Part shown: positions 21,294 through 44,917 of the stretch, piece after piece
How positions within the stretch are numbered: position 1 is the first letter of the stretch
How the letters are laid out: each line of letters opens with the position of its first letter
Virus record (IMG/VR): IMGVR_UViG_3300023112_000022
Location: 1 to 51,457 of that record
Source of the DNA: a virus
DNA length: 51,457 nt
Direction: 5' to 3' (one strand)
The notes under the pieces: generated by a model
Database searches by the model: none
What the model saw: the letters and a program-made list of their open reading frames with translations, nothing else
Told to the model about the DNA's origin: nothing
Position numbers and translations under genes: made by a program

Positions 21294-22469
21294 TTGTTTT
21301 ACATAACTCTTGATTCGAAGGAAGAGTGTTTAGGATATTACTATGACGGCGCCATCCACGATACGAGCCCCGATCCCGACAAAAACAATGTAACATGGGA
21401 CTACTCCCATTCTCATCACCAAGACGGAATAGAGTATCTGAAGCTTTATTGTGGCGGCAAATCTTTGGGAGAAATGTGCCCCGAGCATCTGGGTAGAGAC
21501 TGGGACGGAGCACTGGAAAAAAGAAAGGCATTCGAAACAGCCATCAAGAATAGTAAAATAGAAGTCCAAGATGTATGTGTATACGATCTGGTCCCGCCAT
21601 GGTTTATGAAAGAAATCTCCCAGCTCAAATGTGAGATTCTTGAGCATGTTCATCAAAACCTCCACAAGCCAGAGGCATACGACTTCATGCTTGGGCTGGA
21701 AAAACTATTTGCCGGAATCAAAGAAAACACTCTCAAGATTGATACATCGAGCCTCCGAGGCAAGCTCGGAAATTCGGCAGTTAGAAACTTCCTCCATAGA
21801 GTCAGAGGAAAGACTTCGATAGAATACAATCAGTTCGGGACTATTACCGGCAGGCTAACAGTAACAAATTCTAGCTTTCCCATTCTAAACATTGAGCGAT
21901 CTCTCAGGGAAATAGTCAAACCGAATAACGATCTGTTTGTGGAGTTTGATTACAATGCTGCCGAGCTAAGAACACTACTCTCTCTATCTGGACAAGAGCA
22001 GCCGAAAAGAGATATCCACGAGTGGAATATTGAGAATGTCTTCAAAAAGGAAATGACCAGAGCCGAAGCGAAGAAGAAGATCTTCTCTGCGATATATAAT
22101 CCGAACATTGACCAAGACTATTATAAGGTGGAAAAGGTATTAAAAAAGTATTACAACTCAGGTAAGATCAATACTCCATACGGAAGAGAAATAGAATGTG
22201 ACGACGGACATGCCCTGAACTATATTTTACAGAGCACTACTAGCGATCTGGTTCTTGATCAAGCTATGAAGATAAACAAGATCCTAGAGGGGAAGAAATC
22301 TAAGATAGTATTCTTGATCCACGACAGCTTTGTGGTGGATTTGGCACAGGAAGAGCGAGCCTTGATATACGAGATCAAGGAAATTTTTTCCCGGAACAAA
22401 ATTGGAGATTTTTTAGTCAATGTTAGTGCCGGCAGAGACTTCGGCAACATGAGGAGGATTGATATATGA
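21294..22469 (+). CDS. Compact family A DNA polymerase (polymerase domain only)
   Basis: A 391-residue protein starting at TTG 21294, six bases after GCGAGG. Family A motifs are clear in order: TGRLTVTNSSFPILNI (residues 185-200), motif A with FDYNAAELRTL and catalytic Asp219, motif B around 256-268 (RAEAKKKIFSAIY), and motif C with His343-Asp344. Both metal-binding Asp residues are present, so it is probably active. The N-terminal 150 residues show no 3'-5' exonuclease or 5'-3' nuclease motifs, and the stretch between motifs B and C is shorter than in Pol I. A gap-filling, primer-processing or repair role beside the DnaE polymerase at 34 kb is plausible. Confidence 0.85.
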   Translation: MFYITLDSKEECLGYYYDGAIHDTSPDPDKNNVTWDYSHSHHQDGIEYLKLYCGGKSLGEMCPEHLGRDWDGALEKRKAFETAIKNSKIEVQDVCVYDLVPPWFMKEISQLKCEILEHVHQNLHKPEAYDFMLGLEKLFAGIKENTLKIDTSSLRGKLGNSAVRNFLHRVRGKTSIEYNQFGTITGRLTVTNSSFPILNIERSLREIVKPNNDLFVEFDYNAAELRTLLSLSGQEQPKRDIHEWNIENVFKKEMTRAEAKKKIFSAIYNPNIDQDYYKVEKVLKKYYNSGKINTPYGREIECDDGHALNYILQSTTSDLVLDQAMKINKILEGKKSKIVFLIHDSFVVDLAQEERALIYEIKEIFSRNKIGDFLVNVSAGRDFGNMRRIDI

Positions 22470-22780
22470 AATACGATAAACTCGTTCGAGATAAAGTACC
22501 ACATCTCTTAATAAAGAAGAAGAAGGTATTCTCATGCCGAGAGGCACTGAAAGAGGAATACTTAGATTATGTTGATGACGCATTGCTTGAGCATGTAAAT
22601 GGCTATTTGGAGAATCGATCTCTCGGAGCACTGGCAGAAGTCTTGGAAGTGGTGTATGCTCTTTCTCTTGAGCTGGGATACACCATCGACGAGCTTATGG
22701 AAGAAAGAATCCAGAAAGAGGCTGACCTTGGGGCATATTACGAGGGAATCATCCTAGAGGAAGTGAAAGAAGATGATTAA
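22466..22780 (+). CDS. MazG/HisE-like NTP pyrophosphatase family protein
   Basis: A 104-residue all-helical protein. The start KYDKLVRDKVPHLL is typical of phosphoribosyl-ATP pyrophosphohydrolase-like (HisE/MazG superfamily) phage proteins. Further on, LGALAEVLEVVYALSLELG and a closing GAYYEGIIL match the family, although the usual EEXXD metal motif is only partly kept (E.LAEVLEV). Family members split nucleoside triphosphates to monophosphates and can tune nucleotide pools. It overlaps the polymerase stop by 4 bases (ATGA), so the two are coupled. Catalytic activity is uncertain because of the weak metal motif. Confidence 0.65.
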   Translation: MKYDKLVRDKVPHLLIKKKKVFSCREALKEEYLDYVDDALLEHVNGYLENRSLGALAEVLEVVYALSLELGYTIDELMEERIQKEADLGAYYEGIILEEVKEDD

Positions 22781-23615
22781 TGTGATTGGCTTGGGCAAAG
22801 TCGGATGTGCTATAGCCGAGAAGTTTAGAAAGCATCCCCAGTATGAAGTATATAAGATAGGAGCAGGGCTTCCCGATAAGGATAATAAGAACTGCTTTTC
22901 CATCAAGAAGAGATCGGCACCAGAAGACTACGAGGAAAAGTTTCCAGCGAGGGTTACGAATGCTCTCAAGAAGATTGATGGCGACATTCTCTTTGTGGTT
23001 TCAGGCGGCACAGACATTTCCTCAGCATCGCTAAGAATATTGGAGGCAGTAAGTCCGAGAAGGATAGAGGTACTATACATAAAGCCAGACCTTACTGACG
23101 ATCATTCAAAGAACCTCGACAGAGTGGTATCTAATGTATTCCAGGAATATGCTCGCTCTGGGCTATTCGAGAGACTCTATCTTATTTCAAATTCCGCAAT
23201 CGAAAAAGTCATTGGGAATATTCCGATTGGCAGATATCAAGACACGATCAATGAATTTGTCTCTTCCACCATTCATATGCTAAATGTCTATAGAAACACC
23301 GAAGCAGTAATATCCAGCTACCCAAAGGAGTCTGGTATCTGCCGAATTTGTACTATAGGAATCGGTGAGATGGAAAAAATGGCAGATCAGATGTGCTTTT
23401 CTCTTGACAATGTGAACGAAAAGAGCTATTATTTTGCTATAAACAAAAAACAGGTAGATAACGATTCTGATCTCCTCTTTAGGGTAAAGAAGAGAGTAAC
23501 ACAAAAAGACGAGGACATAAAAGTAGGTTTTGGAGTATACTCAACGGAATATGACAAGAACTACATCTATATTGTTTCTCAAACAAAGATAATTCAAGGA
23601 GTAAACTATGGTTAA
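22773..23615 (+). CDS. Divergent FtsZ/tubulin-like protein (fold inferred)
   Basis: A 280-residue protein of a family I know only as conserved in marine T4-type phages. Its segments line up in order with FtsZ: INVIGLGKVGCAIAEKF (FtsZ nucleotide loop 1), an ALKKIDGDILFVVSGGTD segment with SASLRILEAV (FtsZ glycine-rich loop and helix), a strand ending IKPDL (VTKPF), LYLISNSAIEKV (LITIPNDKLLKV), a helix like the FtsZ central helix, and a C-terminal domain with GIGEMEKMADQM, YYFAIN and VGFGVYSTEYDKNYIYIV. The diagnostic GGGTGTG loop is degraded to SGGTDIS, so GTP use is doubtful. It overlaps both neighbours, inside the replication operon. Confidence 0.55.
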   Translation: MINVIGLGKVGCAIAEKFRKHPQYEVYKIGAGLPDKDNKNCFSIKKRSAPEDYEEKFPARVTNALKKIDGDILFVVSGGTDISSASLRILEAVSPRRIEVLYIKPDLTDDHSKNLDRVVSNVFQEYARSGLFERLYLISNSAIEKVIGNIPIGRYQDTINEFVSSTIHMLNVYRNTEAVISSYPKESGICRICTIGIGEMEKMADQMCFSLDNVNEKSYYFAINKKQVDNDSDLLFRVKKRVTQKDEDIKVGFGVYSTEYDKNYIYIVSQTKIIQGVNYG

Positions 23616-23883
23616 AATTTTTACAGGTTCTTTTAAGAAGAAGAACGACGACATTCGGACTATGACTTTTGTAAAGCTGGAAGATCTCCCCTCCAGCTTT
23701 TTAAGTTCCAAGGTTAAGGATGGATCATCTCAGCGAAAAGTACCAGAAGGGCAAGAGCTCGTCTGGGATGTTTCCGAGTCTGCTTTCCGGACATTCAACT
23801 GGAACTCAGCACTGGGAGAAGTAGATGTGAAACTACTGGAAGGAAAGGAAAAAGAAAATTTTGAGAAAAAGCACTTGACATAA
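23608..23883 (+). CDS. WYL_2-type (Sm-like/SH3 barrel) small protein
   Basis: A 91-residue protein with the pattern RTMTFVKLEDLPSSFL, then LVWDVSESAFRTFNWNSALGEV, which matches the small Sm-like SH3 barrel proteins (formerly DUF2693) conserved in T4-type phages. The role is unknown; nucleic acid or protein binding is inferred from the fold. It overlaps the FtsZ-like gene by 8 bases. The -35 element of the strong promoter for SSB lies inside its last codons. Confidence 0.65.
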   Translation: MVKIFTGSFKKKNDDIRTMTFVKLEDLPSSFLSSKVKDGSSQRKVPEGQELVWDVSESAFRTFNWNSALGEVDVKLLEGKEKENFEKKHLT

Positions 23884-23934: not shown

Positions 23935-24687
23935 ATGACGATTGATATGAAAAAAATGAGAGAAAAGTACAGCACCCTCAAAAACCGAGGTCAGGGTGGT
24001 GGTAGTCAGTTCTGGAAACCTTCCGAGGGTTCACAGACTGTACGGATTGTTCCGACTGAAGACGGAGATCCTTTCAAGAGCTTTTCTTTCCATTATGGTG
24101 TCGGCAAAGAGGGCGGCTTCCTGTGTCCAAAGAATAACTTTGGAGAGGATTGCCCAGTATGTGGTTTTGTTCGTGGTCTTTACCAAGAAGGCGATGAAGA
24201 GAGCAAAGCTATGGCACGACAGCTCGGTGTGAAATCTCGATTCTTCTCTCCCGTCCTTGTTCGAGGGGAAGAGGAGCTTGGAGTCCGTCTATGGGGTTTT
24301 TCCAAGACGGTATATGAAACTCTCCTGGGTCTTGTGCTGAATCCGGACTACGGGGATATTACGGATATTGAAACTGGTATCGATCTGGATCTACATTACG
24401 GTAAGCCACCTGGAGGTCAATTTCCTATGACCAAGGTGACACCAAAGCGACGTTCTAGCCGCCTTTGCAGCGATAAGATTAGCGAAGAGCAGTGTGAAGG
24501 TCTTTTGGGTACTGTACCAGATTTTGAATCTCTCTTTGAGAAAAAGACGACTGTCGAAGTCCAAGGATTCTTGGATGTTCATTTGACAGCCGACAATCCA
24601 GAGGAGTTTTCCAGTGAAGTGGAAAAATATCCTGGAAAAAGTGTGAACAAGGTTGATAATGCCCTTGACGAATTGATGACTCGTTAA
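23935..24687 (+). CDS. 32: Single-stranded DNA binding protein (gp32-like)
   Basis: A 250-residue protein with the gp32 build: a short basic N-terminus, an OB-fold core and an acidic tail. The zinc site H53-x10-C64-x8-C73-x2-C76 closely follows the T4 gp32 pattern. It coats single strands at the fork and organises recombination with the UvsX-like protein encoded next. It has its own consensus promoter, a strong AAAGGAG ribosome binding site and its own terminator, which fits very high expression. It is somewhat shorter than T4 gp32 (301 residues), mostly at the C-terminal end, where acidic residues are fewer than usual. Confidence 0.93.
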   Translation: MTIDMKKMREKYSTLKNRGQGGGSQFWKPSEGSQTVRIVPTEDGDPFKSFSFHYGVGKEGGFLCPKNNFGEDCPVCGFVRGLYQEGDEESKAMARQLGVKSRFFSPVLVRGEEELGVRLWGFSKTVYETLLGLVLNPDYGDITDIETGIDLDLHYGKPPGGQFPMTKVTPKRRSSRLCSDKISEEQCEGLLGTVPDFESLFEKKTTVEVQGFLDVHLTADNPEEFSSEVEKYPGKSVNKVDNALDELMTR

Positions 24688-24705: not shown

Positions 24706-24737
24706 GAGGCACAGGGTTAACGGGTGCCTCTTTTTTT
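24706..24737 (+). terminator. Rho-independent terminator after SSB
   Basis: A 7-bp stem (GAGGCAC with GTGCCTC), an 11-base loop and seven T, starting 19 bases after the stop codon. Confidence 0.92.
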
Positions 24738-24759
24738 ACTTTATTTACGGAGTTGTGCT

Positions 24760-25884
24760 ATGGTGAGAAGTTTGAAACAGAAAAAAGGTTCTTTGAACAT
24801 CGATGAGCTTAGGAAGAAGATCAATAAAAAGGCTGGCATGAATGTAGCACACGATCTTACGACAGATAATCCAACTGAAGTCAAAGACTGGATTCCCACA
24901 GGCTCCACATGGCTAAATAGTGTCATTTGCCGAGGAAAGACTGCTGGCATCCCAGTAGGAAAGATATCAGAGATAGCAGGATTAGAAGCCTCCGGAAAGA
25001 GCTATATGGCAGCCCAGACAGCAGCCAATGCCCAGAAAATGGGAATCAATGTGGTATACTTCGACTCGGAATCATCCATCGATCCTACTTTTCTTAGCAA
25101 AAGCGGTCTGAATGTCGATGAAGTTCTGTATGTCCAGGCGAGCTCTGTTGAGTTTGTGCTGGAGACGATTGAGGAGCTCTTGAATTCGACGGAAGATAAG
25201 ATGCTGTTTATTTGGGACAGTCTCGCCTTGACACCAGCGGTAAGTGATGTAGAGGGAACATTTAACCCTAACGAATCGGTAGCTGTCAAGGCTCGTGTAT
25301 TGGCTAAGGGAATGTCCAAACTAATAGTGTCGCTAGCCAACTCACAGTCTACCCTTTTGGTATTAAATCAGCTCAAGACAAATCTCCAAGTAGCGAACCC
25401 GAAGTACGCGACGGATAGTGAAAAATATACCACTCCTGGAGGCAAGTCGATGATGTATGCCTACAGTTTGAGAATTTGGCTGACTGGCAAGCGAGGCAAG
25501 AAGAGCATCATCGCTGACGACAAGGGTTTCATTGTCGGCAACGAAGTTAAGGCTCGATTGGAAAAGTCTCGATTTGGAACAGCCGGCAGAATATGTAATT
25601 TCAAGATTATGTGGGGCAAAGACATCGGGGTGAGGGATGACGAGAGTTTATTTGAGGCTATACAGTCTTCGGACCAGTTGATGAACTCGGGTCCATGGTG
25701 GACTCTCAAATATGGTGATGGATCTGAACAGAAATTCCAAGCCGCCAAATGGGGTGAATTCATGCTGGATTCAAAATTCCGAGATAGAGTTTTACGGCTT
25801 GTGGACGAAGAAGTCGTCCTGAAGTTTGATAATAGGGATGTAGATGCCCAACACTTTTACGATGAAACTGAATCAGAGGTATAA
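24760..25884 (+). CDS. uvsX: RecA/UvsX-type recombinase
   Basis: A 374-residue strand-exchange ATPase. The Walker A motif is GLEASGKS (residues 74-81), the Walker B strand is LFIWDSLAL, and a loop with TPGGKSMMYAYSLRIWL follows, as in RecA and UvsX. It forms filaments on single-stranded DNA and supports recombination-dependent replication with gp32. ATG 24760 is chosen because GGAG lies 7 bases upstream and the longer in-frame start would lie inside the terminator. Motif A includes the Glu-Ala-Ser form common in phage UvsX. It opens an operon with ClpP and the exonuclease. Confidence 0.93.
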   Translation: MVRSLKQKKGSLNIDELRKKINKKAGMNVAHDLTTDNPTEVKDWIPTGSTWLNSVICRGKTAGIPVGKISEIAGLEASGKSYMAAQTAANAQKMGINVVYFDSESSIDPTFLSKSGLNVDEVLYVQASSVEFVLETIEELLNSTEDKMLFIWDSLALTPAVSDVEGTFNPNESVAVKARVLAKGMSKLIVSLANSQSTLLVLNQLKTNLQVANPKYATDSEKYTTPGGKSMMYAYSLRIWLTGKRGKKSIIADDKGFIVGNEVKARLEKSRFGTAGRICNFKIMWGKDIGVRDDESLFEAIQSSDQLMNSGPWWTLKYGDGSEQKFQAAKWGEFMLDSKFRDRVLRLVDEEVVLKFDNRDVDAQHFYDETESEV

Positions 25885-25886
25885 GA

Positions 25887-26495
25887 ATGAAAATGTTAAA
25901 GCAAGATAAATACTGGGGGAGCACTTGTGATATCCGCCTAGACGACAGCAGCTCGAACGAGAATGAGGTATCTTCCTTAAACAACAGGATCTATTTCTAC
26001 TCAGAAGTAACTCGACCGGAATGTCTGGCACTAAACAAAAACATCCAGACCCTATCTGATGCTATGTGTACAAATGGTCATAACTACAATATTCCAGTTC
26101 CCCCAATCCGGCTACATATCAATTCCTACGGAGGATCTGTCTTCGCTGGACTCTCATCGGTGGATTATATAATGGCTTCCAAGGCACCGATCCACTCGGT
26201 AGTAGAGGGATGTGCAGCATCAGCAGCAACACTGATGAGTGTCGTGGCTGAAAAGCGATACATCCATAAGAATTCATTCATGCTCATCCATCAACTATCT
26301 TCTGGTATGTGGGGCAAGTTTGAAGAGCTCAAGGACAGTATGGAGAATTGTGAGATTTTGATGCAGACCATCAGGGAGATCTATAACAAGCACACTAACA
26401 TTCCAAAAAAGAAGCTTGACGAGATTCTCAAGCACGATTTGTGGTTCGATGCTGACACCTGTCTAAAATATGGTTTAGTTGACGAAATTATTTGA
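25887..26495 (+). CDS. ClpP-like serine protease
   Basis: A 202-residue S14-family protease. The catalytic triad is complete: Ser112 in GCAASAATL, His135 in FMLIHQ and Asp184 in LKHDLWFDAD. The INSYGGSVFAG strand and the GLVDEI ending also fit ClpP. The first 35 residues are extra and charged. It follows the recombinase gene by two bases. No ClpX/A unfoldase is seen nearby. It could work with host unfoldases, or serve as a head maturation protease, a role that ClpP-related enzymes take in many phages; no gp21-type protease is seen before the scaffold gene. Confidence 0.9.
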   Translation: MKMLKQDKYWGSTCDIRLDDSSSNENEVSSLNNRIYFYSEVTRPECLALNKNIQTLSDAMCTNGHNYNIPVPPIRLHINSYGGSVFAGLSSVDYIMASKAPIHSVVEGCAASAATLMSVVAEKRYIHKNSFMLIHQLSSGMWGKFEELKDSMENCEILMQTIREIYNKHTNIPKKKLDEILKHDLWFDADTCLKYGLVDEII

Positions 26496-26507: not shown

Positions 26508-26684
26508 ATGAAAAAAACGAAAATAGAAACTCTCAAAGAGACAGTCAAGATATCTATAGATGCAATAGAAAACCTTCTTGACGAAATATTTCTACTGAGA
26601 GAAGAGAATGAAAAGATAAAGAAGAAGCTACAGTCTGTTAGGGCGAAGCTTAAGCGATTGGAATCTGAGAATGGGCGAAAATAA
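26508..26684 (+). CDS. Small coiled-coil protein, 58 residues
   Basis: An ATG frame between the ClpP and exonuclease genes, overlapping the latter by 14 bases. The product is almost entirely Lys/Glu/Leu-rich helix with heptad-like spacing (LLDEIFLLREENEKIKKKL), so a dimeric or trimeric coiled coil is likely. It has no cysteines and no recognised family. Its position in a gap of just the right size and the overlap with the next start support a real gene. The function is unknown; an accessory factor for its neighbours is possible. Confidence 0.65.
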   Translation: MKKTKIETLKETVKISIDAIENLLDEIFLLREENEKIKKKLQSVRAKLKRLESENGRK

Positions 26685-27657
26685 GAAAAGAATAATGATA
26701 GTTGACGGTCACAATGCTTTTATTAGGCACTATATTGTGAACCCAACTATCTCCTCCAACGGTCAGCCTATCGGAGGCTTAGTAGGCTTCCTCCAGGGAC
26801 TACAAAAGTTAGCAAGAACGATAAAGCCAGATCTAATATCTGTTGTATGGGACGGAGAAAACGGCAGCCGCCGACGTCGAAGCATCGTCAAGGGGTACAA
26901 GGAAGGCAGGAAGCCAGTCCGGCTCAATCGATTTATAAGAAACCTGCCTGAGAATGAGGAGTCAAAAAATCTCATCTGGCAGCAGGTCAGAGTCCTTGAA
27001 TATCTAAACGAGACACCTGTGATCCAGTTTATGTTTCCAGAAACAGAGGCAGATGACACCGTAGCATATGTGAGTCAACTCCCTCAGCTTAGTGACTGGC
27101 ACAAAGTGATAGTATCCAGCGACAAGGATTTCTTCCAGCTATGTGGCGATTCGACAGTCTTATACCGTCCCATACAGGACGAGGTTGTGAACAAGAATTC
27201 TATTTTGGAAAAATTCAGCATCCACCCCGATAACTTTGCCCTCGCTAGGGCAATCTCTGGGGATAAATCAGACAACCTTCCTGGTGTGCCGAGAGTTGGA
27301 ATTCCGACTGTGGCAAAACGACTCCCATTCCTGTCGGAGGACAAGGAATATCTGGTAGCTGATATAGAGAAATATTGTGAAGAGAGAGAGGAAGAAAAGG
27401 TTAAGTTTTATAGAGATGTCTTGGAGAATATTGATATCGTAAAAATCAACTACAAGATGATGCAGCTCTATTCACCATCCCTCTCAACTCAGACAACTAG
27501 AAAAATAAGGGAAACATTTGACGAGTATGTTCCCCTCTTTAATAAGACGGGAATGGTAAAGCTTCTGTTCGAAGACGGCTGCCCTCAAATCAACCTCGAC
27601 AATCTCTTTGCCCTATTTCAGAGAACTGTTTATGAACTAAAGAAACAAACCTCTTGA
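26671..27657 (+). CDS. 5'-3' exonuclease/flap nuclease (RNase H type, FEN family)
   Basis: A 328-residue PIN-like nuclease. Metal-binding acidic residues stand in the usual order: IMIVDGHNAF, VVWDGEN, ETEADDTVAY, SSDKDFFQL and SGDKSDNLPGVPRVG with the helix-hairpin-helix following. It is close in length to T4 RNase H (305 residues) and probably removes RNA primers from lagging strands, work that the compact family A polymerase cannot do because it lacks this domain. It starts inside the preceding small coiled-coil gene. The stop is followed by the helicase promoter, whose -35 overlaps the last codons. Confidence 0.9.
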   Translation: MGENKKRIMIVDGHNAFIRHYIVNPTISSNGQPIGGLVGFLQGLQKLARTIKPDLISVVWDGENGSRRRRSIVKGYKEGRKPVRLNRFIRNLPENEESKNLIWQQVRVLEYLNETPVIQFMFPETEADDTVAYVSQLPQLSDWHKVIVSSDKDFFQLCGDSTVLYRPIQDEVVNKNSILEKFSIHPDNFALARAISGDKSDNLPGVPRVGIPTVAKRLPFLSEDKEYLVADIEKYCEEREEEKVKFYRDVLENIDIVKINYKMMQLYSPSLSTQTTRKIRETFDEYVPLFNKTGMVKLLFEDGCPQINLDNLFALFQRTVYELKKQTS

Positions 27658-27703: not shown

Positions 27704-29059
27704 ATGGAACTAGACAACGATTCGACTTTTGGCTCTTTCGGAAAAGGATTCCAAGAATCCCTAGCAAAGATGATTCTAGATGATTCTCGCTTTTCGACAC
27801 AGATTGGCGAAGTGCTTAACATAAACTTCTTTGAACTAAAGTATCTTCAAAATTTTGTAGATAAAGTTTATCTGTACAAAGAGAAGTATAAGAAGCACCC
27901 ATCGAGAGACACATTCGAGAGCATTCTCAAGAGCGAAACTTCCTCTGGGAACGAAGCCGTTAGAAAGCAGGTTCGGGATTTCTATGTCCGAATCGCCAGC
28001 GGAAACTTCTCTAATGTTGATGAAGAGTTTGTCCAGGATAAATCCCTTGACTTCTGTCGGAAGCAAAAGCTCCAAGAAGCTATGCTCAAAAGTGTGAAGC
28101 TGATGCAAAAGTCTTCCTTCGACGAAGTTAGCAAGATCATCAATGATGCTCTCAAACTAGGTGTCGATAACGATACTGGGTATGACTTCATAAAAGATTT
28201 CGAGGCAAGGTACGAACTCAGATCCAGGCATCCAATTGCAACTGGCTGGGGAGAACTAGATAGAATCACTGGCGGAGGCATGGGAAAAGGAGAACTCGGA
28301 GTCGTTATAGCTCCTACTGGTGTAGGTAAAAGTATGGTGCTAGCTCACTTGGGTGCCATGGCTTTGAGGAACGGAGTAAATGTTGTTCACTATACACTAG
28401 AACTTCAAGACATGACAATCGGGAATAGATATGATAGTTGCCTGACTGGAATCCCCATCAACGAACTTCGCCACAGCAAAGAGGATGTATTCGAGGAGAT
28501 CAAAGAACTGCCAGGAAAGCTTTTGATCAAAGAATACCCAACGAAGTCGGCTACCACCCAGACTCTCAGGACTCACCTGGAGAAGCTCCGAAACCGAGAT
28601 TTCAAGCCTGGAATGATTGTTGTTGACTATGGCGACATTTTGAAGCCTATTTCACACTCGAAGGAGAAAAGGGAAGAGCTCGAAACTATTTATGAAGAGT
28701 TGAGGGCAATCGCTCATGAATTCGAGTGCCCCGTCTGGACAGCATCTCAAACGAACAGGAGTGGGATAAACGCTGAAGTCATTACAATGGAATCTATTAG
28801 TGAAGCATTCTCGAAATGTTTCGTGGCTGATTTTATTTTCTCAGTATCAAGAACTGGTGCTGACAAGATGAACAATACGGGGAGGGTTTATATAGCCAAA
28901 AATAGGAATGGTATTGACGGTGTAGTGTTTCCAATTTTTATGGACCCAGGAAATGTCTCGATAAAGGTATTTCCACAAGACGAGCACTCGGCAGAGGTTT
29001 TGTCGGGTCCACAGAAGGTATATAAGATGCTCAGGGATGAAACAAGAAAAGAAGATTAG
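27704..29059 (+). CDS. Replicative DNA helicase, DnaB/gp41 type
   Basis: A 451-residue RecA-fold hexameric helicase. Residues 1-150 form a helical N-terminal domain. Walker A is APTGVGKS (203-210), Walker B is in MIVVDYGD, and WTASQTNRSG and SVSRTGADKMNNTGRVYIAKNRNG follow as the later ATPase and DNA-binding motifs of DnaB and gp41. It unwinds the fork and would work with a primase not seen in this window. It is read from its own promoter together with the ribonucleotide reductase gene 26 bases downstream. Confidence 0.92.
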   Translation: MELDNDSTFGSFGKGFQESLAKMILDDSRFSTQIGEVLNINFFELKYLQNFVDKVYLYKEKYKKHPSRDTFESILKSETSSGNEAVRKQVRDFYVRIASGNFSNVDEEFVQDKSLDFCRKQKLQEAMLKSVKLMQKSSFDEVSKIINDALKLGVDNDTGYDFIKDFEARYELRSRHPIATGWGELDRITGGGMGKGELGVVIAPTGVGKSMVLAHLGAMALRNGVNVVHYTLELQDMTIGNRYDSCLTGIPINELRHSKEDVFEEIKELPGKLLIKEYPTKSATTQTLRTHLEKLRNRDFKPGMIVVDYGDILKPISHSKEKREELETIYEELRAIAHEFECPVWTASQTNRSGINAEVITMESISEAFSKCFVADFIFSVSRTGADKMNNTGRVYIAKNRNGIDGVVFPIFMDPGNVSIKVFPQDEHSAEVLSGPQKVYKMLRDETRKED

Positions 29060-34060: not shown

Positions 34061-37000
34061 ATGGAAAGAAAAGAATCAACGATTCCGTTCGTAGGATTAC
34101 ATGCCCACAGTGTCGCCAGTGTGTTTGACGGTCTTGGATACCCACAAGAACACATGGACTTTGCTTATGAGAACGGTATGGATGCCCTGGCTCTAACTGA
34201 TCACGGCAACATGAACGGGCTGGCATATCAAGTGCTTCATGCTAAAAAGATGAAAGAACAAGGTAAAGACTTTAAGCCAATTTTTGGTGTTGAGGCATAC
34301 TTTATTCCGTCCGTATCGGAATGGCGAGATGACTATGATCGAATCAAGAAAGAGCGAGCCGAGAGCAAAAAGCGGCAATCCAAGTTGGACGATGATGTAT
34401 CCGGTGCGACTGTCGAAGATGAGGAAGAGACAAAGAAGGCTATCAAGAGCATCCTGAATAGGCGACGCCACTTGATTCTATTAGCCCAGAACCAAAAAGG
34501 GCTAAATAACATTTTTCAACTAATCAGTAAGAGCTATAAGGAAGAGAACTATTATCGCTTTCCTCGCCTAGATTTTGATATGCTACAGGAACACAATGAG
34601 GGGGTCATTGCTGCCTCCGCTTGCCTAGGTGGTGTATATGCCGGAGACTTCTGGGAGAACCGAGAGGAAGGCTCTGAGGCAGTCAGAGAGGCAATGAGAA
34701 AGACAACATCGAGGATGGTGGACATCTTCGGCGACAGATGGTATGCCGAGCTCCAATGGAACAGAATCGATGAACAGCATCAACTAAACAAGCATATTAT
34801 CGAGGTAGCAAAAGAGTTTGATGTGAGTCTAATTAGTACCGCTGATAGTCACTATCCAAGACCCGATGTGTGGAAGCAGCGAGAGGTATACAAAAAGATC
34901 GGATGGCTCAAAAAGGGCGATGATGGCTCGGGAATCCCCGAGACAATCGACGAAATGGATTACCAGCTTTATCCCAAGAATGGTGATGAAATGTGGGCAT
35001 CTTACAAAGGGTACTCAAAGGATTGTGGATATGAATACGATGATAATCTGGTACGCGACTCTATTGCCGAGACGCATAACATTGCCCATGAGAGAATATC
35101 CAGGTTTTTACCAGATAACCAGGTACGGCTTCCAAGTTTTGTGGTCCCCGAAGGTAAAACGCCAGCAGATACTCTCATTGAGTGTTCCACTGAGGGGCTC
35201 CGAGAAGCCGGTCTTGATAAGAAAGATGTTTATGTAAATCGCCTAAACGAAGAGCTTGAGGTAATCAACACTAACGAGTTCTCTCAATACTTTCTTACGA
35301 TGAAAGCAATTGCAGACATCGCCTCATCCAAGCAGCTCGTAGGTCCAGCCCGTGGTAGTGCGGCAGGCTCTCTTGTTGCTTATGTTCTGGGTATAACCCA
35401 AGTGGATCCGATAAAGTATGATCTTCTGTTTGAGCGGTTCATGACGAGGAACCAGAAGGATGTAGGCTTTCCCGACATCGACTATGATGTTTCAGATCCT
35501 TTTGAACTGAAAGAGGCTCTGATAGAAGAGTGGGGCGACGATAAAGTTGTGCCCATCTCAAACTGGAACACCCTTCAACTAAAATCTCTGATAAAAGACA
35601 TCAGCAAGATGCAGGGCATTCCCTTCAAGGAAGTGAACTTAGTTACCAGTGTGATGATGAGAGAGGCAACCCCTTTGGCTAAAAAGGCGAAGGGCATGAC
35701 GGCAGGCATGTATATTCCAGGCTTCGAGGAAGTGAAAGAATACAGCCCTACATTACAGGAGTTCTTTCGAAAGTATCCCGATGTAGAGACTAATGTTGAT
35801 GTACTGTACGGTCAAGTGAGAAGCTGCTCTCGTCATGCTGGCGGAGTAGTTGTTGGAGACAATCTAGACCAGCATATGCCGATCATCAATAGTGGTGGTG
35901 TGAAACAGACTCCATGGAGCGAAGGGCAGAATGTCCGGCATCTAGAGCCCATGGGCTTCATTAAGTTTGATATCCTGGGACTAGCATCGCTTCGAATGAT
36001 GGAGTCAGCAATCGTCCATGTTCTCAAGCGACACAAGGGTAATCCTGAGCCCACTTTTGATGATGTGAAAGAATTCTACGACAAGAATCTTCACCCAACA
36101 GCTATCAACTTGGATGACCAGAATGTATACAAGAATATCTTCGGGAGAGGAAAATGGGCAGGCATCTTCCAGTTTACTGAAGACGGAGCCCAAAGGTTTT
36201 GTAAGCATGTCAAGCCAAACAACATCGTTGATCTCTCTGCTATTACGAGTATCTATCGACCTGGACCTCTCTCCGCTAAAGTGGACAAGCATTACATCCA
36301 AGCAAAGAACAATCCTGATGAGATTGAATATGCTCACGAGATTGTCGAGGAAGTAACCAAGGAGACTTACGGGTTTCTTATCTTCCAGGAGCAAATAGCA
36401 TTGCTAGCCCATCGCCTTGGTCACGACATCAGTCTAGACGAAGGGAATATGCTTCGTAAGATTTTGACCAAGCGAGGCTCTGGGAAAGACAAGCTCAAAG
36501 AGGATATCCACAATCGGTTCATCACGGGATGTTTAGAGAAAGACATGAGAGCAGACGATGCTCAAAGACTATGGGATACATTTGAGTTCTTCTCAGGGTA
36601 TGGATTCAACAAGTCTCATGCCTTGAGCTACAGCATCCTATCGTTTCAGTGTGCTTGGTTGCTGAACTACTATCCTTCCGAGTGGATGGCAGCATTCCTA
36701 GACAAGGAGCCAGAAGCACGAAAAGAGAAGGCTATCAACATAGCACGAAGTATGGGATTCGAAATTGAGAAGCTCAATGTAAATACTAGCGGCTTCACTT
36801 GGGAAATCAACGAAGATGGCAACACACTAATCCAGCCGCTTTCGAGCATCAAGGGCTTGGGGAGTACAGCCATCAAAGAGATAATGACCCACCGACCATT
36901 CAATACGGTGGAGGATTTCCTCTTCAACGATAGGATGCTCTACTCGAAGGTAAACAAGAAGAGCATCGATGCACTTGCTCGCTCTCAGGCGATGAACGAA

Positions 37001-37495
37001 CTTATTGACGATAGGTTTAGTGGGATGAGGCACTTCTGGATGGCGATAGCCAATGATCGTCCGAGAAAAGAGAAGAATCTTGTAGAGAACATAGAGAAGT
37101 ATGTTAGCGAAGGAGACTTCACCCCAGAGGAGAAGCTTGATTACCTCATTGACTTGACTGGGCTATTCCCATTCGAGCTTGTTATGACAAAGGAAGTGTC
37201 TCGACGCCTGGAAGAGGTTGCTGTCCCTCCCATCAGCGAGTATGATCCAGAGCTAGGAATTGTGTGGTTCATTCCCAGGAAAGTAGTGGAGAAAAAGACG
37301 AAGCACGGCAAGGATTGGTGGCTCATAGAAGCCATAGACAAGAACAGCACTGTGACAGCAATAAAGTGCTGGGGAGTCAAGAAGGGCTCTGACAGTGTAC
37401 AGCTAAACCGCCCCTACATGGCACGACTAGATCACGATCCGGTATGGGGATTTAGCACAAGAAGCATCAGGCATTCTTTTAGGATGCTAGGGTAA
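34061..37495 (+). CDS. dnaE: DNA polymerase III alpha subunit (DnaE type, family C) with intact PHP domain
   Basis: A 1144-residue family C polymerase, as long as bacterial DnaE. The palm has GPARGSAAGSLVAYVLGIT, PDIDYD (Asp472 and Asp474) and KFDILGL (Asp637), the three catalytic acids. The N-terminal PHP domain keeps all nine metal ligands expected for an active proofreading site: His14, His16, Asp23, His48, Glu78, His137, Cys188, Asp262 and His264. So it may copy and proofread alone, as mycobacterial DnaE1 does. Replicative polymerase of this phage is the likely role, in place of T4 gp43. No clamp or epsilon subunit gene is seen. It has its own sigma70-type promoter. Confidence 0.95.
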   Translation: MERKESTIPFVGLHAHSVASVFDGLGYPQEHMDFAYENGMDALALTDHGNMNGLAYQVLHAKKMKEQGKDFKPIFGVEAYFIPSVSEWRDDYDRIKKERAESKKRQSKLDDDVSGATVEDEEETKKAIKSILNRRRHLILLAQNQKGLNNIFQLISKSYKEENYYRFPRLDFDMLQEHNEGVIAASACLGGVYAGDFWENREEGSEAVREAMRKTTSRMVDIFGDRWYAELQWNRIDEQHQLNKHIIEVAKEFDVSLISTADSHYPRPDVWKQREVYKKIGWLKKGDDGSGIPETIDEMDYQLYPKNGDEMWASYKGYSKDCGYEYDDNLVRDSIAETHNIAHERISRFLPDNQVRLPSFVVPEGKTPADTLIECSTEGLREAGLDKKDVYVNRLNEELEVINTNEFSQYFLTMKAIADIASSKQLVGPARGSAAGSLVAYVLGITQVDPIKYDLLFERFMTRNQKDVGFPDIDYDVSDPFELKEALIEEWGDDKVVPISNWNTLQLKSLIKDISKMQGIPFKEVNLVTSVMMREATPLAKKAKGMTAGMYIPGFEEVKEYSPTLQEFFRKYPDVETNVDVLYGQVRSCSRHAGGVVVGDNLDQHMPIINSGGVKQTPWSEGQNVRHLEPMGFIKFDILGLASLRMMESAIVHVLKRHKGNPEPTFDDVKEFYDKNLHPTAINLDDQNVYKNIFGRGKWAGIFQFTEDGAQRFCKHVKPNNIVDLSAITSIYRPGPLSAKVDKHYIQAKNNPDEIEYAHEIVEEVTKETYGFLIFQEQIALLAHRLGHDISLDEGNMLRKILTKRGSGKDKLKEDIHNRFITGCLEKDMRADDAQRLWDTFEFFSGYGFNKSHALSYSILSFQCAWLLNYYPSEWMAAFLDKEPEARKEKAINIARSMGFEIEKLNVNTSGFTWEINEDGNTLIQPLSSIKGLGSTAIKEIMTHRPFNTVEDFLFNDRMLYSKVNKKSIDALARSQAMNELIDDRFSGMRHFWMAIANDRPRKEKNLVENIEKYVSEGDFTPEEKLDYLIDLTGLFPFELVMTKEVSRRLEEVAVPPISEYDPELGIVWFIPRKVVEKKTKHGKDWWLIEAIDKNSTVTAIKCWGVKKGSDSVQLNRPYMARLDHDPVWGFSTRSIRHSFRMLG

Positions 37496-43351: not shown

Positions 43352-44917
43352 ATGAAAAATTATGATGACGGCAGTTCTTTATCACAAAAAATTCTAGACG
43401 GAGTTAACAAGTTGGCGGACAATGTTGCCGCCACAATGGGACCAAGGGGCAGGAATGTTGTTATCCAGCCTAAGAATGGAAATCCGATCATAACCAAAGA
43501 CGGGGTAACAGTAGCACGGTTCATAGACTTTACTGACCCATTCGAAAATGTCGGTGCCCAAGTAATCAAACAGGCAAGCGAAGAGACGAACACCAGTGCT
43601 GGTGACGGCACCACCACAGCCATCGTCCTCTCTCGGGCAATCTTCATTGAGGCACAGAAATACATCGCTGCTGGAGCATCTCCAGTTGAGCTCAAGCGAG
43701 GCATCGACAAGGCAACAGCCGTTATCGTAAATAATCTCCGAGCCAGTGCTAAGAGGGTGACGAAGCTTGACGACATCGAAGACATCGCCACCATCTCGGC
43801 TAACGGTGATCGGACAATAGGAAAGCTCATCTCCACAGCCATCGACATGATCGGCAAAGACGGCTCAATAACCATCGAGGACGGCAAGTCGCTAGAGACC
43901 AGCCTAGATGTAGTTGAGGGCTTTCGCTTCGACAGCGGCTATGCCGCCAGTGCCTTTATCACTGATGAGCGGAGAGGAGTTCTAAAGTATAACGATCCTC
44001 TCTTCCTAATCACAGACGAAAAGATTGAGTTCGTGGAAGACATCCTCCCAGCACTAGAACTGGCGGCACGAGATGGTCGCCCCATCGTCGTCGTAGCAGA
44101 AGAGATTGAGGGTCAGGCTTTAGCGGCAATGATTATGAATACGGTGAGGGGAACAATGAAGGTTGCCGCCATCAAGGCACCTCGCTACGGAGACGAGCGA
44201 AGGAACATCCTCCAAGACTTGGCTACCAGTGTCGGTGCCACTTTTGTAACCAGGGAGTCAGGGCTCAGTCTTCGTGATATCAAATTGACTCACCTCGGAA
44301 ATGCTAAAACGATTGAGGCATCAAAGATAGCCACAACCATCGTTGGCGGCAACGGGGATACTGCCCAGGTAGAACAAAGGATCGAATCTCTCAAGTCACT
44401 CTTCGAGCAGACAGACAACATGCAGGCTTGTGAGAGAATTCAAGAGAGGATTACCAGATTGGCTAGCGGCATTGCTATCATTAGTGTGGGGGGCAACACT
44501 GAAATAGAGATGACAGAAAAGAAGCATCGCATCGAAGATGCTCTTGAGGCAGTGAAGTCAGCTCAGCAAGAGGGGATGGTATGTGGCGGAGGCATGGCAC
44601 TCCTGTCGGCAGCCCGAGGTGTGGAGATACAGGCAGATAACTCTGACCAGGAATATGGTGCTCAGATTGTGCTCAAGGCGATTCAGGAGCCCTTACGGCA
44701 AATGGCGGCTAATGCCGGCAAGAAGCCAGATGTCTTGCTAGACGGAGCTCTAGGGCTTGACGAGGGCTATGGCTTCGATATGTCAACAGGCAATACGGTG
44801 GATCTGCTGGGCAGCGGGATCATAGATCCGGCAAAAGTAACCAGGTGTGCTCTTCAGAATGCTGTATCGGCAATAGGGACACTTATTACTACGAGTCACG
44901 CCATTATCGAGGACTAG
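43352..44917 (+). CDS. groEL: Phage-encoded chaperonin GroEL
   Basis: A 521-residue group I chaperonin. ATP-site motifs are intact: MGPRGRNVVI, TKDGVTVA with Asp50, GDGTTTA (84-90) and the catalytic Asp in RIEDALEAV, then GMVCGGG. The apical domain and the helix-rich part are complete. The C-terminal Gly-Gly-Met tail of host GroEL is missing and it ends in ...SHAIIED; length is otherwise near that of bacterial GroEL (548). Phage GroELs are rare. It may fold phage proteins such as the capsid protein, perhaps with the GroES-like protein at 31 kb. A strong GGAGG and its own sigma70-type promoter point to high, early expression. Confidence 0.97.
   Translation: MKNYDDGSSLSQKILDGVNKLADNVAATMGPRGRNVVIQPKNGNPIITKDGVTVARFIDFTDPFENVGAQVIKQASEETNTSAGDGTTTAIVLSRAIFIEAQKYIAAGASPVELKRGIDKATAVIVNNLRASAKRVTKLDDIEDIATISANGDRTIGKLISTAIDMIGKDGSITIEDGKSLETSLDVVEGFRFDSGYAASAFITDERRGVLKYNDPLFLITDEKIEFVEDILPALELAARDGRPIVVVAEEIEGQALAAMIMNTVRGTMKVAAIKAPRYGDERRNILQDLATSVGATFVTRESGLSLRDIKLTHLGNAKTIEASKIATTIVGGNGDTAQVEQRIESLKSLFEQTDNMQACERIQERITRLASGIAIISVGGNTEIEMTEKKHRIEDALEAVKSAQQEGMVCGGGMALLSAARGVEIQADNSDQEYGAQIVLKAIQEPLRQMAANAGKKPDVLLDGALGLDEGYGFDMSTGNTVDLLGSGIIDPAKVTRCALQNAVSAIGTLITTSHAIIED

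Follow-up and report, generated by a model that had tools for sequence, protein, structure and literature searches.

The window, by which we mean the whole 51,457-nucleotide stretch of IMG/VR record IMGVR_UViG_3300023112_000022 that was analyzed, encodes a protein, named T1 here, that almost certainly has the tubulin/FtsZ fold along its whole chain, to judge from its predicted structure. The combined use of AlphaFold2, Foldseek, and VIA-align supports T1 as a distinct branch of the tubulin superfamily, as the original prediction from the sequence had proposed, and this branch is common to a large set of phages whose head genes are related to those of T4. T1 is a tubulin-superfamily member with a new architecture, in that its model lacks the T7 loop and helix H8, and with a new context, a phage replication module.

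The T1 gene is an ATG-initiated open frame that shares 8 bases with the frame upstream and 8 bases with the frame downstream (Table 1). Comparison of the window gene with that of L097, a close relative, shows 28 synonymous and 6 nonsynonymous codon changes, and T1 is therefore a real gene. (In another close relative, G004, represented by L004 and L098, the T1 gene lies in two frames, from either sequencing error or decay.) The window record, which is probably a fragment, also encodes the sheath of a contractile tail and a major head protein of the T4 type. The original prediction placed T1 in a T4-type replication operon, a description that holds for the gp32-like single-stranded DNA binding protein (SSB) and UvsX but not for the PolA-like protein, DnaB, and the DnaE-type polymerase, such that the module is only partly of the T4 type. 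Other genes of the window merit a separate remark: a DnaE-type polymerase III alpha and a separate family A polymerase-like gene occur here alongside the T4-type head protein, and the phage carries a full-length GroEL-type chaperonin gene (window positions 43352-44917; PHROG 5725, E 1.4e-144). The Clp-type protease belongs to a cluster of five sequences (one each from the window, from L123, and from three near-identical contigs), and in L123 it precedes the T1 gene.

Table 1. Features of the T1 gene and its surroundings in the window, with two examples of the second phage tubulin, T2, from other records
Feature	Position	Strand	Basis or remark
Family A DNA polymerase-like (PolA-like) protein	21294..22469	+	Usual upstream neighbor of T1
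Small MazG-like protein	22466..22780	+	Pfam E 0.0004, below cut-off; BLAST relatives in 14/80 T1 loci
T1, tubulin-superfamily protein, 280 aa	22773..23615	+	ATG-start open frame and predicted fold
T1, nucleotide loop, residues 5-12, IGLGKVGC (family IGLGxAGC)	22785..22808	+	Profile alignment
T1, T4 (Gly-rich) loop, residues 77-83, SGGTDIS (family GxGxIS)	23001..23021	+	Profile alignment
T1, N140, place of the FtsZ IPND Asn (T6)	23190..23192	+	Profile alignments; 63/66
T1, long central helix H7, residues 152-174	23226..23294	+	AlphaFold2 model, profile alignment
T1, H7-S7 link, residues 175-191, place of the FtsZ T7 loop (catalytic acids) and helix H8	23295..23345	+	Model, entropy
T1, C-terminal domain, residues 192-271, with four strands plus an H10-like helical segment	23346..23585	+	T1 model compared with T2 model
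Small protein, function not assigned	23608..23883	+	Cluster of 15 sequences including that of the window
gp32-like single-stranded DNA binding protein (SSB)	23935..24687	+	Usual downstream neighbor of T1
UvsX/RecA-like recombinase	24724..25884	+	
Clp-type protease	25887-26495		Between UvsX and the 5'-3' exonuclease; PHROGs name, head maturation protease
5'-3' exonuclease	26671..27657	+	
DnaB helicase	27704-29059		
DnaE-type DNA polymerase III alpha	34061-37495		Farther along the window; the family A polymerase-like gene is separate
T2 examples	L192:1030-2121 (G045); L193:991-2028 (G046)		Alignment A4

T1 is assigned to the superfamily because of its predicted structure, not because of a reading of its motifs. 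AlphaFold2, run without templates and with 66 relatives, returned a model with a pLDDT of 95.5 and a pTM of 0.92 (94.7 to 95.5 across the five models), in which two domains are joined by a long central helix, H7, as in the tubulin/FtsZ superfamily. When this model was compared with the PDB by Foldseek, the 50 matches listed were all FtsZ (best E 2.9e-13; TMq 0.62-0.72). A second comparison with VIA-align, run on the top chains from Foldseek and with Z differences under 1 treated as ties, matched the model to CetZ (Z 24.5, 3.1 Å over 256 residues), TubZ (Z 22.7, 3.1 Å over 272 residues), FtsZ (Z 22.5, 3.7 Å over 266 residues), and beta-tubulin (Z 21.6, 3.2 Å over 265 residues), at sequence identities of 10-15% among the matches listed. 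Within viral models, the best match is a phage protein annotated as FtsZ (E 2.6e-12), and the match to the PhuZ model is modest (E 3.6e-6, TMq 0.56). The fold search thus recovered FtsZ, tubulin, TubZ, and, less strongly, PhuZ, and the alternative that would have counted against the original prediction, a confident model with another fold such as that of a Rossmann dehydrogenase, did not appear among the matches listed, although absence from such a list does not by itself exclude a family.

Sequence comparisons place T1 only slightly above chance in its similarity to FtsZ, which is marginal. A T1 profile aligned with a 26-sequence FtsZ profile over T1 residues 3-168 and FtsZ residues 14-194 (E 0.009 in a single comparison) and with Escherichia coli FtsZ over T1 residues 70-166 (E 0.3). 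The two family profiles are in register at nucleotide loop 1, at the strand before the Gly-rich loop, at IKPD (VTKPF in FtsZ), at ISN (IPND in FtsZ), and at the start of H7; these are the correspondences that had been read by eye as FtsZ segments lying in order, a reading upheld by the profile alignment and, at full length, by the fold model. In a shuffle control confined to the columns used (E 0.015), 1 of 150 column-shuffled profiles scored as high, and the global-mode run of T1 against FtsZ aligned two residues. Profile searching therefore returned a co-linear FtsZ alignment but not a decisive score, and proof of FtsZ homology from sequence was set aside (E 0.009-0.3, with 1/150 shuffles as high). 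Against the profile of T2, the second phage tubulin described below, the T1 profile did no better than its controls: E was 0.041, 4/150 shuffles reached the true score, and reversal of the T2 profile raised the score. PDB sequence searches with T1 profiles at E values up to 10 contained no tubulin among the matches listed, and single-sequence scans of the window T1 against Pfam, PHROGs, and NCBIfam gave no tubulin match, with none to PF00091 or TIGR00065 at E values up to 1. Among 13 family members searched against Pfam, one reached PF00091 (E 0.043) and three reached saccharopine dehydrogenase (best E 0.0008); the window T1 itself matched ApbA, a Rossmann family, at an E of 0.23. An hhalign comparison with phiKZ PhuZ aligned only a C-terminal stretch (E 0.089) and not the GTPase domain.

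Conservation within the family was read from 66 nonredundant T1 sequences (alignment A3, which omits near duplicates, the G004 copy because it is split, and L104 because its start is unclear). The nucleotide loop is the most constrained of the pocket segments, with G6 present in 64/66 sequences, G8 in all 66, G11 in 65, and C12 in 62. The Gly-rich T4 loop has Gly at position 78 in 61/66 and at position 80 in 60/66, where the window has Thr, and S83 in 60/66. That its signature is reduced to SGGTDIS, as the original prediction stated, is correct as to the reduction itself, but the exact form is in part a quirk of the window, since most relatives retain the second Gly; the copies of L101 and L160, for example, have GxGxIS loops together with Tyr at position 156. 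Profile alignments set N140 on the Asn of the FtsZ IPND motif and set position 156 (Tyr in 48/66, Phe in 6/66, and Gln in the window) and N160 (63/66) on the Phe/Tyr and Asn/Asp of H7, all of which we take to be guanine contacts in FtsZ and tubulin. Entropy relative to the protein mean is 0.40 for the nucleotide (T1) loop, 0.71 for the guanine stretch of H7, 0.83 for the T4 loop, and 0.91 for T6; by sequence, the T4 and T6 stretches thus appear only moderately conserved and far less constrained than the nucleotide loop. The window copy departs from the family at positions 10, 30, 80, and 156, and its nucleotide binding may therefore be weak or absent, which would make it a weaker binder than its relatives.

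The opposite half of the subunit interface has a different character. The link between H7 and strand S7, which spans residues 192-198, contains no helix in the model, keeps the same 19-residue spacing in 66/66 sequences, and has no conserved acidic position, with an NxD- or DxxD-like pattern in 11/66. Its entropy exceeds that of 99.6% of the 15-residue windows of the T1 protein, making it the most variable part, whereas the same region in FtsZ and in T2 exceeds only 19-20% of windows. A counterpart of H9 is likewise absent from the T1 model, in comparison with the T2 model, which has a helix in this place, and the chain ends about 9 residues past the last strand, which in the model leaves no room for an FtsZ-type tail or C-terminal peptide. 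T2, modeled in the same way, served as the positive control for this reading of T7, H8, and H9. We infer that selection has acted on the nucleotide site and not on the catalytic, subunit-to-subunit half of T1. Normal GTPase activation has very probably been lost, judging from the model; the absence of GTPase activity, which the original prediction had raised as a possibility, is supported as a probable lack of normal activity by a model with no T7/H8 and by a link with no conserved acid. The predicted pI of the 66 members has a median of 5.9 and a range of 4.7-9.2, a spread too wide for charge to point consistently to DNA binding.

A direct search with the window T1 recovered four near-identical IMG/VR contigs, and tblastn of the same protein against 50,697 phage records gave no match at E values up to 1; with L109, a distant member, as the query, two partial matches in those records had E values of 3-5 and were taken as chance. 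Related phages were instead reached through the major head protein (80 loci), and 43 records were examined, comprising the 4 fetched by T1 and 39 fetched by the head protein. T1 is present in 16/43, namely, all 4 of the former and 12 of the 39 latter, many of which are short fragments, and these 12 copies are 30-66% identical to the window T1 over nearly their whole length. A 13-sequence T1 profile matched at least 581 stretches in IMG/VR. The single scan of a prokaryote genome collection yielded one copy of the T1 module, in a metagenome-assembled genome assigned to WOR-3 (CP070664.1, L304), where the 160 kb around the module has runs of N (100-345) in 7/8 stretches and, apart from PolA/T1/SSB/UvsX itself, resembled window proteins at just two more places, both weakly. 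This copy may be a binned phage contig, and we do not accept WOR-3 as a host.

The position of T1 is fixed within its lineage. Of 80 T1 loci, 71 have a same-strand gene of at least 150 residues upstream, and in 63 of these the nearest one is PolA-like; on the downstream side, the nearest such gene is the SSB gene in 65/68. To avoid choosing loci by T1, we searched with an SSB profile (A5, built from 30 sequences, all of them T1 neighbors), and among the best 80 SSB loci, T1 lies 16-684 bases upstream of SSB in 76/76 that were testable, the other 4 being too short; because these loci are the best matches to the window SSB, they sample one lineage, and the constancy applies within that lineage. 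By this behavior, T1 resembles a core gene of the replication module and not an accessory takeover gene. Outside the lineage, the T1 profile, which elsewhere matched 21/34 records, matched 0/5 of Mel-JY01, LR756508, immuto, RM378, and LR756511. Two cultured phages show what stands in its place: in Microcystis phage Mel-JY01, a 428-residue gene directly precedes SSB and the T1 slot is empty, and in Flavobacterium phage immuto, two small genes and no T1 lie between PolA and SSB. Since modules of this kind also occur in phages that manage without T1, it is not a general requirement; it is a lineage-specific yet fixed part of the replication module. (Two uncultured phage records that the T1 profile does not match, LR756508.1 of 484 kb and LR756511.1 of 595 kb, have major head proteins among the nearest to that of the window, at 50% and 41% identity over about two-thirds of the length.)

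When ten long records were searched with the Pfam tubulin model, two contained a different protein, T2 (about 350 residues). Its motifs are complete (GVGGGGGK, GGGGGTGS, and FDSKDL), and its profile matches FtsZ and CetZ in the PDB (best E 2e-10) and E. coli FtsZ (E 1.4e-9); matches to TIGR00065 (E 9.5e-8) and to Pfam fall below the respective cut-offs. The T2 model reaches a pLDDT of 88.8, with low quality over its first 29 residues; it shows helices at 250-257, in the place of H8, and at 278-288, in the place of H9, and it matches TubZ, CetZ, and FtsZ, with a Z of 32.6 for TubZ. An IMG/VR scan found 107 matching stretches, in large uncultured phages, and tblastn against the 50,697 phage records found none. 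T2 occurs in 7 of the 36 records searched (34 of which have T1), and all 7 carry T1, though T2 itself had been the query that fetched 5 of them. Among T1-bearing records not fetched through T2, it occurs in 2/29, both within the six records of 147-188 kb (2/6). Conversely, T1 is present in 5 of the 18 long records fetched by T2. A recognizable SSB gene is present in 8 of the 13 T2-fetched records without T1, and T1 was found in 0/8 of these within about 1.5 kb on either side of SSB, in a search that recovered it in both T1-bearing controls. The window record, probably only part of a genome, has no T2 match, and where both proteins occur, their genes are far apart. Strict pairing of T1 and T2 was rejected as a rule on these counts (5/18 and 2/29). 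In L192, the gene adjoining T2 looks by eye like one for a sigma factor.

Several known proteins share some part of this description. FtsZ has the same fold, order of nucleotide-loop segments, T6 Asn, and H7 positions but differs in possessing a full T4 loop, the T7 loop and H8, H9, and a C-terminal tail, and its sequence similarity to T1 barely exceeds chance. TubZ and CetZ are among the best structural scores; unlike them, T1 lacks T7/H8, H9, and a C-terminal extension and is encoded in a replication module. PhuZ (phiKZ gp39, from the nucleus-forming jumbo phages) is likewise a phage-encoded tubulin fold with a modest model match, but its GTPase domain does not align with T1, which occurs in a lineage with a T4-type head protein. 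The FtsZ-like protein Nmar_1262 of Nitrosopumilus maritimus is described as seeming to lack the T7 loop and the GGGTGTG motif and as not polymerizing in yeast (PMC3684127); it is encoded by a cell in an unrelated context, and we liken it to T1 from the published description only. T2 belongs to the same superfamily and to overlapping phage lineages but has complete T1-, T4-, and T7-loop motifs and helices in the places of H8 and H9 and is encoded elsewhere in the genome. Phage tubulins are described, mainly in jumbo phages, as positioning or segregating phage DNA or as building compartments (PMC7824862, PMC7162821, PMC13282480), and those named in the literature examined are of the PhuZ and TubZ types; a comparison of 224 jumbo phages reports two distinct FtsZ/tubulin representatives in such phages (PMC7824862), and a survey of huge phages (PMC7162821) and a 2026 review (PMC13282480) mention PhuZ. 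In the titles and abstracts among the matches listed by a literature search on phage FtsZ/tubulin and T7-loop loss, with subscription papers and preprints largely outside its coverage, no such protein is described for T4-type phages or for a replication operon.

The explanation that we put forward, tentatively and as one that stops somewhat short of probable, is that T1 takes part in phage replication and recombination as a nucleotide-binding but nontreadmilling switch or scaffold. The usual pocket of T1 would hold a guanine nucleotide, but the protein would be unable to give catalytic acids to a neighboring subunit, and because of this inability, a self-hydrolyzing, treadmilling homopolymer of T1 would not be expected. 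Instead, T1 could be a nucleotide-controlled switch or a single-ended scaffold that organizes a complex of SSB, UvsX, and the PolA-like protein, and it would perhaps set the position of this replication-recombination complex in the cell. The proposal follows from the retention of the pocket, the loss of T7/H8, and the constant company of SSB, UvsX, and the polymerase. The scaffold role as such is held with the same reserve, as a fair guess not yet tipping toward acceptance, given that a shared gene neighborhood is no proof that T1, SSB, UvsX, and PolA share a complex and that divergent tubulins can polymerize in unforeseen ways. A precedent for a phage protein of cytoskeletal fold that serves DNA replication is AlpC, a prophage actin-like protein reported to be required for efficient phage DNA replication (PMC4446434), although AlpC, unlike T1, is actin-like, hydrolyzes nucleotide, and forms filaments.

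The strongest alternative is that T1 is a true cytoskeletal filament that places or segregates phage DNA in the manner of PhuZ or TubZ and assembles without the T7/H8 of FtsZ. We regard this as unlikely: the fold matches TubZ and CetZ over its whole length (PhuZ more weakly), known phage tubulins are described as acting on the position of phage DNA (PMC13282480), and T1 is linked to DNA-handling genes, but T7/H8 is absent, and the chain stops shortly after its last strand, whereas for TubZ a C-terminal tail that is flexible is reported to be required (PMC5322520).

It is improbable, for its part, that T1 inhibits host division as a one-faced tubulin that caps FtsZ filaments by its nucleotide face and so poisons the Z-ring. 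Retention of the top (nucleotide) face and loss of the bottom (T7) face would give T1 the look of an end cap, and other phages do target FtsZ, as reported for lambda Kil (PMC3961180). Against this stand the place in the replication module at every testable SSB locus and the model, which has no room for an FtsZ-type C-terminal peptide. A fixed place of this kind would be unusual for a host-takeover gene. The suggestion that T1 is a decoy that binds host FtsZ, also made in the original prediction, gained no support: T1 behaves like a core-module gene and has no FtsZ-type tail, although some interaction with FtsZ is still conceivable.

A role for T1 as the regulatory partner, whether cap or nucleator, of the canonical tubulin T2 in some of the same phages we consider quite improbable. 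T2 carries GGGGGTGS and FDSKD, resembles FtsZ and CetZ by sequence and TubZ, CetZ, and FtsZ by model, and is accompanied by T1 in all seven of the 36 records that have it; however, five of these seven were fetched through T2, the remaining frequency is 2/29 (in records that are possibly incomplete), T1 is present in few of the long T2-fetched records, and the two genes lie far apart.

Finally, that the fold is a Rossmann-type coincidence and T1 a metabolic dinucleotide-binding enzyme is highly improbable, and a Rossmann dehydrogenase was rejected as the main reading, because the weak Pfam matches to ApbA and saccharopine dehydrogenase, of which the one with coordinates spans residues 2-80 only, are set against structural matches that span both domains and the central helix (256-277 of 280 residues among the matches listed) and that, as listed, all belong to the tubulin superfamily.

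The T1 family covers at least 581 IMG/VR stretches, yet it has no credible tblastn match in 50,697 phage records, and Pfam, PHROGs, and NCBIfam miss the window T1 as a tubulin. The occurrence of a canonical T2 alongside T1 in part of the lineage offers a natural pair for studying the division of labor between active and inactive members of the family. It is conceivable, if somewhat doubtful, that a tubulin relative gave up polymer-driven GTP hydrolysis and became a fixed, nucleotide-regulated component of a viral replication machine, with some members having a second, apparently catalytically complete tubulin. A widespread family without T7/H8 and locked in a replication module would represent a different use of the tubulin fold, and it raises the question of whether a relative of tubulin can serve as a GTP switch in DNA replication.
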